Part shown: piece after piece, positions 55,883 through 57,964 of the stretch
Layout: each line of letters starts with the position of its first letter
Position numbering within the stretch: position 1 is the stretch's first letter
Origin: Candidatus Nanopelagicus hibericus
GTDB taxonomy: Bacteria; Actinomycetota; Actinomycetes; Nanopelagicales; Nanopelagicaceae
Direction of reading: 5' to 3'
Length of the DNA stretch: 64,000 nucleotides
Assembly: GCF_002288005.1 (NCBI RefSeq)
Contig: NZ_CP016771.1
Coordinates: forward strand, 434,001-498,000
The notes under the pieces: generated by a model
The model's database searches: none
What the model saw: the letters and a program-made list of their open reading frames with translations, nothing else
What the model was told of the DNA's origin: nothing
Position numbers and translations under genes: made by a program

Positions 55883-56971
55883 ATGAACAATTCACCACTA
55901 GCAGCGCGACATACGCAGGCATCTGCAAAAATGGCAGATTTTGGCGGCTGGTTGATGCCAATTGAGTATGCAGCAACTGGCGTAATTGCGGAGTATCAAG
56001 CGGTTCGAAATAATGTTGGATTATTTGATGTCTCGCACCTGGGAAAGATCTCAGTGATCGGTGTTGGCGCAGTTGAATATTTGAACCAAATGGTCAGTAA
56101 TGATTTAGCAAAAATTCAAGCAGGTCAGGCTCAGTACACACTGCTTTGTAATGAGGATGGTGGAGTAGTCGATGATCTCATTGTTTATCGAAACTCAGAT
56201 GCTGATCTTTTCTTGATTCCTAACGCTGCAAATACAAGTTCAGTCTTTGAGATTCTAAAGGCGCAGGCACCTGCTGCGATTGAGGTAAAGAATTTGCATC
56301 GGCAGTATGGGGTAATTGCGTTACAAGGGCCAAACTCGGTAGCGGCGCTAAAGGAGATTGGTATCGAAAGCAATATGGATTACATGCAGTTTGTAAATAC
56401 TTCAATTGATAATTGCCCAGTTATTTTATGTAGAACTGGATACACCGGAGAGTTAGGCTTTGAAATTATTCCAGCTTGGCAGGATGCGCAAAAGGTTTGG
56501 GATAAATTGATCGCAGTTGTTGAAAAGTTAAATGGTTGTGCATGTGGATTAGGCGCAAGAGATGTTCTGCGTACTGAGATGGGATATCCGCTACACGGCC
56601 ATGAACTCTCACTACAGATTTCACCGGTGCAGGCGGGTGCTAGCTGGGCGGTGGGTTGGAGCAAACCAACATTTAGGGGCAAAAGAGTTCTAACTGAGCA
56701 AAAGGAACAGGGAAGTAAATTGAAATTAAAGGCGATCTTGGCGAAGGATCGTGGCATCCCGCGTAAAGAGATGCAGGTGAAGGATCAATCTGGAAAGGTA
56801 ATTGGTGTAGTTACAAGTGGAACCTTCTCGCCCGCACTAAAGAAGGGAATTGGCCTGGCGTTAATTAACTCCGAGGTCAGTAAGGGCGATCAAGTCCTAA
56901 TCGATATTCGTGGCGCAGATTCACCCTTTGTGGTGGTCTCACTACCGTTTGTGGAATCTAAGGTTCGTTAA
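55883..56971 (+). CDS. gcvT: Glycine cleavage system aminomethyltransferase (T protein)
   Basis: Transfers the aminomethyl carbon from GcvH to tetrahydrofolate, releasing ammonia. Motifs: NSPLAARHTQASAKMADFGGWLMPIEY, GLFDVSHLGKISVIG, GVVDDLIVYR, GYTGELGFEIIPAW, and GLGARDVLRTEMGYPLHGHEL. 362 residues. GcvH and GcvP genes are not adjacent. Lpd from the neighbouring operon serves the same complex. Ends 7 bases from the convergent small membrane protein gene. Confidence 0.95.
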   Translation: MNNSPLAARHTQASAKMADFGGWLMPIEYAATGVIAEYQAVRNNVGLFDVSHLGKISVIGVGAVEYLNQMVSNDLAKIQAGQAQYTLLCNEDGGVVDDLIVYRNSDADLFLIPNAANTSSVFEILKAQAPAAIEVKNLHRQYGVIALQGPNSVAALKEIGIESNMDYMQFVNTSIDNCPVILCRTGYTGELGFEIIPAWQDAQKVWDKLIAVVEKLNGCACGLGARDVLRTEMGYPLHGHELSLQISPVQAGASWAVGWSKPTFRGKRVLTEQKEQGSKLKLKAILAKDRGIPRKEMQVKDQSGKVIGVVTSGTFSPALKKGIGLALINSEVSKGDQVLIDIRGADSPFVVVSLPFVESKVR

Positions 56972-56978
56972 CTAAAGC

Positions 56979-57149
56979 TTAGTAATGTCCACCCCAGTAG
57001 CGCCAGGCATAAGCTGCAATTTCAGTTCCCACGAAAAGAATTGAAAAATGAAGTGCAACTGCCAGGAATTTAGAGAGCAGCGATTTAACTTTCGAGGTAG
57101 TACTTACCTCAACAATAATCGGTGCGTTCGCAACTGTGTTAGTGAACAT
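56979..57149 (-). CDS. Small single-pass membrane protein in the B12-riboswitch operon
   Basis: 56-residue protein. Translated start MFTNTVANAPIIVEVSTTSK, then one hydrophobic helix (FLAVALHFSILFVGTEIAAYAW) and a short tail ending RYWGGHY with a terminal His. The gene starts 8 bases after the DUF4430 stop with a GGGAAT ribosome binding site, so both are on one transcript controlled by the cobalamin riboswitch. It resembles small cobalt-transport subunits (CbtB) in size and setting only; it lacks their His-rich C-terminal motif. No function can be assigned. Confidence 0.7.
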   Translation of the reverse strand: MFTNTVANAPIIVEVSTTSKVKSLLSKFLAVALHFSILFVGTEIAAYAWRYWGGHY

Positions 57150-57157
57150 AAATTCCC

Positions 57158-57685
57158 CTACTCCGGAAACTTAACATTACCATTATCAGCAAAGACAAAG
57201 GCAAGTGAATCACCAGGCTTTAATGCCAGATCTGCAACGCCAACTTGAGCCCACGCCCACTTCGCATTTAAATCAGCTGGATTTGGTACCGGCTGCTTAC
57301 GTTTTTCCAGCACCGCCCAGTAGGCAAACTCAGCTGGCATATCCTTACAGGTTTCAATGTAATCCTCATGGCCCTTAATGCCGATTGGCTCATTTGGCTT
57401 AGGTAAATTATTAATTCGACAAACTATATTGTTGCCGTATTTATCAGTTCCCTCTAATTTGAAGTTGGCGCTGTTCATTAAATCCAGCGCAGTTACCGCA
57501 CCATCTGCAGTAAGGCACTTCTCATAAGGCGCACTTTGTGGATCTAAAACTCCGTAATCAATAAGTACTGTGACGCAGTTTTTGTTTGATTGCGCTGAGT
57601 AGAAGGAGATGCCCCCAATAATCAGGGCTGCTACCAGTGTTGCCGGAAGAAACTTCTTCCCATTATTTACGATGTTACTTAACAT
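57158..57685 (-). CDS. DUF4430 (transcobalamin-like) membrane-anchored exported protein
   Basis: 175 residues. Positions 10-30 form a signal peptide or membrane anchor (FLPATLVAALIIGGISFYSA); the rest is a DUF4430 domain, the fold of the beta domain of animal transcobalamin and intrinsic factor. Domain features: CVTVLIDYGVLD, DGAVTALDLMNSANFKLE, YWAVLEKRKQ, and WAWAQVGVADLALKPGDSLAFVF. Four cysteines (37, 57, 89, 113) could form disulfides. Directly downstream of a cobalamin riboswitch, so probably a B12- or cobamide-binding surface protein for uptake. That role is inference. Confidence 0.8.
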   Translation of the reverse strand: MLSNIVNNGKKFLPATLVAALIIGGISFYSAQSNKNCVTVLIDYGVLDPQSAPYEKCLTADGAVTALDLMNSANFKLEGTDKYGNNIVCRINNLPKPNEPIGIKGHEDYIETCKDMPAEFAYWAVLEKRKQPVPNPADLNAKWAWAQVGVADLALKPGDSLAFVFADNGNVKFPE

Positions 57686-57872
57686 GTGTTGCCTCTCAAG
57701 TAGAGAGTTTCACGTAAGCGAAAAAACTCAACTAGGTGAGATTTCCCGCCCCGCAATCCTCGACGGGTGGTTAATAAATCAAATGTGTTGGGTAATCCGA
57801 CTTGAAATACTAGATTTCTCACGGTTGCGGGACAGCGTCGGAGTTGCACCGACTTCCCCCAGTCACACTTTT
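57686..57872 (-). promoter_or_regulatory. Cobalamin (AdoCbl-type) riboswitch with ribosome-binding-site sequestering hairpin
   Basis: Minus strand. The aptamer core (about 57872-57781) has the diagnostic GGGAAGTCGGTGCAACTCCG, ACGCTGTCCCGCAACCGTGA and AAGTCGGATTACCC blocks, and its ends can pair (AAAGTGT with ACACATTT, one bulge). Downstream, just before the ATG at 57685, CTCTC pairs with GAGAG around a 5-base loop, covering the ribosome binding site (AGAGG), so repression is probably translational. TAATAT at 57882-57887 is a possible -10 for the transcript. It controls the DUF4430 gene and the small membrane protein. Confidence 0.92.
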
Positions 57873-57964
57873 TAAACTTCAATATTAAGTTGTAGGCGGA
57901 TTCTGCTTACTTTTCTTTATTTGCGCAACTCACCACGCCAATTGCCGAAGTTGGCTGGGGCGGT

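Follow-up and report, generated by a model that had tools for sequence, protein, structure and literature searches.

The locus described here raises the question of what two genes do under the control of a cobalamin riboswitch when no cobalamin importer gene lies beside them. It is located in the window, the whole analysed stretch of 64,000 nucleotides from Candidatus Nanopelagicus hibericus, an abundant freshwater bacterium, and the genome containing the window (G000) is one contig of 1,223,088 bases with 99.9% completeness. On the minus strand at positions 57738-57884, an adenosylcobalamin-type aptamer was matched by the covariance models RF01482 (61.1 bits, E 9e-9, gathering score 50) and RF00174 (35.7 bits, cut 31.5), which places it in the Rfam clan CL00101 (cobalamin riboswitch) and agrees with the original prediction of a cobalamin aptamer and with its proposed RF00174 search by Infernal. 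In the RF00174 search, this aptamer upstream of the first gene, D, was the only cobalamin riboswitch of the 1.22 Mb genome. Between the aptamer and the start codon, single-sequence folding and an alignment of 13 homologues indicated an expression platform consisting of the hairpin CUCUC-UACUU-GAGAG (57692-57707, minus strand), which is predicted to mask the Shine-Dalgarno sequence GAGAGG of D. The stem of this hairpin is kept across the genus, and at one locus (L014) another pairing was preferred by the single-sequence fold. Past the second gene, S, the next gene is gcvT, which is located on the opposite strand and ends at 56971. Since gcvT follows directly after S on the other strand, the riboswitch controls only D and S. 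The hairpin sequestering the ribosome-binding site, the two-gene operon and the lack of an importer gene beside it had all been predicted and were borne out.

Gene D (57158-57685, minus strand) encodes a protein of 175 amino acids, in which a single N-terminal hydrophobic segment at about residues 12-30 forms a membrane anchor and is followed by an extracellular domain with the predicted fold of the transcobalamin beta domain. The protein had been described as a membrane-anchored DUF4430 protein, and the fold in that description was supported by structural comparison, whereas the family assignment from sequence was not. PF14478 (DUF4430) gave no match above its gathering score in D, in 12 host relatives, in 33 host and phage members or anywhere in the G000 genome, and neither D nor S matched any Pfam, NCBIfam or PHROG profile. 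With the 12 close relatives only, AlphaFold returned an unusable model (pLDDT 48), while AlphaFold2 with 33 host and phage sequences returned a model of residues 30-175 with pLDDT 91.2 and pTM 0.86. The top 16 Foldseek matches of this model were all transcobalamin, intrinsic factor or 3u7z (best E 6e-4). As had been suggested, the model was compared with the transcobalamin beta domain, and VIA-align gave Z 10.7 over 95 residues (rmsd 2.8, 18-19% identity); the values for haptocorrin, intrinsic factor and the DUF4430 structure 3u7z were Z 10.0, Z 9.4-10.0 and Z 9.9, respectively, and the next unrelated fold fell to Z 5.5. In the model, H37-43 is followed by E48-51 and E55-62, which correspond to the beta-hairpin after the helix of the beta-grasp fold. 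By its modelled fold, D is confidently predicted to belong to the transcobalamin-beta/SLBB transcobalamin clade. At the level of profiles, D matched the SCO2322 family with P 9e-5, a score not reached in 100 column shuffles, and DUF4430 weakly with P 0.02 (0 of 100 column shuffles reaching the score), while PDB sequence searches with D profiles returned nothing relevant and D was without significant match in BFVD. In the alignment of the 33 host and phage homologues, C37, C57, C89, C113, R90, W123 and G158 are conserved.

Gene S (56979-57149, minus strand) encodes the expected 56-residue one-helix protein, with one hydrophobic transmembrane span, a Lys-rich N-terminal side and the C-terminal sequence WRYWGGHY. 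S adjoins D in 122 of 123 loci, the lone exception being at a contig end. Common to the 67 distinct S sequences are a single span, then Trp-Arg (or Trp-Gln), and, among the last few residues, a His or Cys, which in the two-span S of some phages sits just after the first span instead. The His/Cys motif belonged to the rule by which S was detected, yet it is present at every D locus with downstream sequence. With a first profile made from bacterial S and three phage S, many phage S scored weakly (E 0.03-0.5); phage S itself went into the later profile, so that its matches are not independent evidence. Lys and Arg are richer before the span than after it, suggesting that the C-terminus of S is outside. 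In transcobalamin, cobalt is bound by a His of the alpha domain. It is proposed that S would contribute such a cobalt ligand and D the beta-domain half, and the pair would then resemble a transcobalamin split in two.

Across the order (296 genomes), D was restricted to the genus of the window, where it was found in 13 of 24 relatives in addition to G000. All 13 D loci also carry S, and the cobalamin riboswitch was observed upstream of D in each of the 12 relatives with complete upstream sequence, so that the predicted co-occurrence of D and S under the riboswitch was confirmed. The records with D loci were named Planktophila, Nanopelagicaceae or actinobacteria. Two records (L098 and L104; CAMCVO010000006.1 and CALPKA020000106.1) are titled Bifidobacterium breve and hold Nanopelagicaceae-type loci, and they are probably mislabelled metagenome bins. 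A weak D match in G080 (L016) was rejected as a D copy, because it falls on the initial membrane segment of a cobalt-transport protein of the CbiN/PDGLE-like kind.

In the family as a whole, the cobalamin riboswitch was detected in 137 of 151 genomes, nearly always once per genome, and in the family loci that were fetched it is flanked by the same aldo-keto reductase gene, with the same gcvT on the far side. The content of the slot between these two genes was BtuFCD in other genera of the family (L029, L069 and L073) and SCO2322-EcfT-EcfAA'-EcfS at L063 to L068 and L070, including four genomes of the window's genus, while in the rest of the genus the slot holds D-S or nothing. In the genomes with an empty slot (G071, G076, G078 and G085), gcvT lies directly against the reductase gene (L143, L145, L148 and L156), and no riboswitch was seen. 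For four acI strains, in which no cobalamin synthesis was found, the ECF version of the slot has been described as a putative transporter of cobalamin (PMC5301498); no description of the D-S version was found in the literature.

The content of the slot goes together with the need for B12. G000 encodes MetH (PF02310, in a 1168-residue frame) and class II NrdJ (609 bits), and MetH or NrdJ was present in all 18 scorable genomes with a slot cassette or importer. The four empty-slot genomes encode neither enzyme and have instead a class I type reductase frame, which matches TIGR02504 over part of the model (about 186-233 bits) and was taken for NrdE since in G066 the copy adjoins nrdI; these genomes have apparently escaped from B12 dependence. 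The association between B12 enzymes and a slot cassette or importer gave a Fisher p of 1.4e-4 with the genomes taken as unrelated, with G083 excluded for an ambiguous reductase fragment and with the BtuFCD of G082 located elsewhere than in the slot. Cobalamin riboswitches were also seen at other genes, including a second one in G066 (L049, C1 about 253663-253811) upstream of nrdI/nrdE, where NrdJ is also present, and strong ones (96-103 bits) in G271 (L031/L071) and G277, that of G271 preceding apparent class I reductase genes.

The D-S genomes were searched for the parts of known importers. FecCD/BtuC (PF01032) was found in none of the D-S genomes searched, including the near-complete G000, G066 and G067, and neither SCO2322 nor the EcfS of the relatives' B12 operon was found in these three. 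CbiQ/EcfT was not found in G000 or G067, and the weak match in G066 is in a frame starting like a cell-division/shape permease. The ABC ATPase loci of G000, whose types were read from neighbouring genes, were of the polyamine, branched-chain amino acid, phosphate, BMP, oligopeptide, sugar, export, ABC-F, Suf and FtsE types, and no ECF ATPase was recognised among them by the same reading. By these searches, the set of EcfT, EcfA and S component that makes up an ECF vitamin importer was not recognised in the near-complete D-S genomes (EcfA being looked for among the ABC loci of G000), and the FecCD permease of a BtuFCD importer is absent from all D-S genomes searched. The idea that a solitary EcfS remained in the D-S genomes was dropped, as none was found. 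The original prediction that D-S might feed a transporter encoded elsewhere met with no candidate, given that FecCD/BtuC, SCO2322 and EcfS are missing from the three near-complete D-S genomes.

D-S fills the slot that in relatives is taken by a full BtuFCD or ECF importer, which argues that D-S does the importer's job, and it would do so without a dedicated ABC ATPase. It has a probability not far below even that D-S does no more than capture B12 at the front end and that an unrecognised or multi-purpose permease elsewhere moves B12 across the membrane, since an S with one span and 56 residues is unlikely to act as a channel alone, and G000 retains ABC importers (Pot, Liv, Pst, Bmp, Opp and sugar types) that might be promiscuous. 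This is opposed by the lack of EcfT, EcfS, SCO2322 and FecCD homologues in the near-complete D-S genomes, and also by the phage copies described below, which have no adjoining permease gene and for which docking of the pair to one host permease would be harder to explain. For the membrane path, S itself and a shared permease are rated nearly equal, S being slightly ahead. The replacement in the slot also bears on a quite improbable reading, in which D-S is an outward-facing device for cobalamin processing and not for uptake, for example removing the upper ligand by the His/Cys of S. The terminal His or Cys conserved in S would suit such a role, and in BtuM, a known transporter, a Cys acts on cobalt; but the slot replacement favours uptake, and processing alone would leave the D-S genomes without B12 entry.

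Outside bacteria, D was found on at least 38 IMG/VR viral contigs (six in the scan with D alone, and 38 once phage D was included), while none was found in 50,697 GenBank phage records. On every contig with downstream sequence, phage D is followed by an S of 44 to 81 residues, whose start usually overlaps the D stop, and the typical order is nrdJ-D-S-adenosyltransferase. A cobalamin adenosyltransferase (PF01923, 143-204 bits) directly adjoins D-S in 30 of the 38 contigs, and class II NrdJ (PF17975, PF21995) is present on 24 of the 38: in 20 it lies no more than about 550 nt upstream, and in the other four it is 5.7 kb downstream. In the reverse test, D was located just upstream in 56 of 61 phage adenosyltransferase loci, these being the loci with at least 700 nt of upstream sequence from the 80 closest to the query. 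The linkage with nrdJ and the adenosyltransferase recurs across divergent phages with differing gene orders, and no cobalamin riboswitch was found on the phage D loci tested. Phage hallmarks on the D contigs included portal and head proteins (L185, L198), terminase and DNA polymerase (L197), virion protein and endolysin (L188) and endolysin (L171, L209), and D-S, being carried on contigs with such genes, can be classed as a phage auxiliary gene module.

Several further features were noted on these and related contigs. Natural comparators are phages (L319-L322 and L324) whose adenosyltransferase gene has the neighbourhood seen in L197 but which are without D-S. A tmRNA (L209:12394-12714, 130 bits) together with several tRNAs on a D-S phage contig could help to identify its host, and an apparent small heat-shock protein gene lies near D in two separate phage groups (L171:7015-7434 and L209:15807-16310).

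A well supported branch (99/98) of the D tree separates the bacterial copies, which form a single clade, from the phage copies, those of L176-L180 being their neighbours. This is compatible with a single transfer, in either direction, between a phage and the ancestor of part of the genus, in a tree that has no fixed root and in which long branches meet at this point. Phage accessory regions commonly hold small membrane proteins and exported proteins, and D-S might for this reason be a superinfection-exclusion or host-surface pair whose B12 neighbourhood is incidental. This is considered very improbable, because the bacterial copies have a B12 riboswitch ahead of them in 12 of 12 testable genomes, the modelled fold of D is that of B12 carriers, and the nrdJ/adenosyltransferase linkage is repeated in divergent phages.

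The best explanation, which is regarded as very likely, is that D-S is a minimal cobalamin-acquisition module common to bacteria and freshwater phages. We infer that D binds cobalamin from the riboswitch, the slot replacement and the phage operon. In the proposed mechanism, low intracellular adenosylcobalamin would lead the riboswitch to free the ribosome site and so allow synthesis of D and S. Tethered to the cytoplasmic membrane, D would then bind cobalamin through its predicted transcobalamin-beta-like domain on the outside. The C-terminal His/Cys of S, placed on the outer side as well by the charge distribution, may come into contact with the cobalt once the cobamide is bound to D, and assist in passing the cobamide into the membrane. 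In freshwater phages, where the operon was observed directly, D-S would supply corrinoid to the phage adenosyltransferase and NrdJ during infection.

It is unlikely that the ligand of D-S is another tetrapyrrole or a corrinoid precursor (heme, cobinamide or pseudocobalamin) in place of cobalamin. Heme, too, is typically liganded by a His or Cys such as that at the C-terminus of S, which could also bind another metal, and heme auxotrophy is reported for members of the lineage in work cited in PMC12381374; the adenosylcobalamin riboswitch and the neighbours that use or adenosylate cobalamin point the other way, although the ligand may be a cobamide other than cobalamin. Within the preferred reading of D-S as a cobalamin-acquisition module, a more far-reaching version is put tentatively, with somewhat less than an even chance: D-S would be a self-sufficient, ATPase-free two-protein importer that arose or spread in phages with a portable B12 economy (capture, adenosylation and B12-dependent dNTP synthesis) and then displaced the riboswitch-controlled ABC/ECF importer in freshwater actinobacteria.

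Little B12 is available in plankton, and many phages rely on a B12-dependent ribonucleotide reductase for copying their DNA. D-S points to a previously unrecognised B12 route for bacteria and viruses, and may explain the B12 supply of near-complete genomes with B12 enzymes and no recognisable importer. A transcobalamin-type domain, as predicted from the model, would thereby be placed in phages and streamlined bacteria.

Compared with the beta domains of transcobalamin, intrinsic factor and haptocorrin (2bb6, 5np4, 2pmv, 4kki), D has the same predicted fold (Z 9.4-10.7, rmsd 2.8-3.1, 95-101 residues), and it has beta strands after the helix, where the ligand-binding hairpin of the clade has been placed (PMC1796856). 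Unlike these carriers, to which it is about 17-22% identical, D has no alpha/alpha toroid, is membrane-anchored, bacterial or phage-encoded and paired with S, and its B12 binding is putative. The DUF4430-like bacterial proteins were put in the SLBB transcobalamin clade with predicted B12 binding (PMC1796856), and D shares with DUF4430 proteins (PF14478, 3u7z) the predicted fold (Z 9.9) and, by a weak alignment of profiles, the order of its elements, but it has no PF14478 match and has four conserved Cys in common with phage D. With the SCO2322 family (NF040672) and its ECF module, D-S has in common the slot, the riboswitch and a homologous core, while the SCO2322 operon has EcfT, EcfAA' and EcfS, all of which the D-S genomes are without. 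The SCO2322-family proteins (L063 3741-4460, L064, L066, L067, L068) have a core common to D and DUF4430 with the YW strand at the N-terminus, as if circularly permuted relative to D, and this sequence pattern suggests that in them a circularly permuted transcobalamin-beta fold serves the ECF importer; a rotated SCO2322 profile aligned 110 columns with D, but the score rose only from 32.6 to 32.8. In other genera of the family this riboswitch slot is taken by BtuFCD, the FecCD-type B12 ABC importer, whereas D-S has no permease, ATPase or PBP-fold protein.

Among phage genes, a close parallel is cyanophage PstS, a phage-encoded nutrient-binding protein, as D-S, too, would be a phage's own means of capturing a nutrient that is limiting. 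Phages with class II ribonucleotide reductase need B12, and enhancement of B12 uptake during infection has been suggested for them (PMC10547690); D-S, with its predicted B12-carrier fold and its operon with nrdJ and the adenosyltransferase, provides a concrete candidate gene pair for this enhancement.
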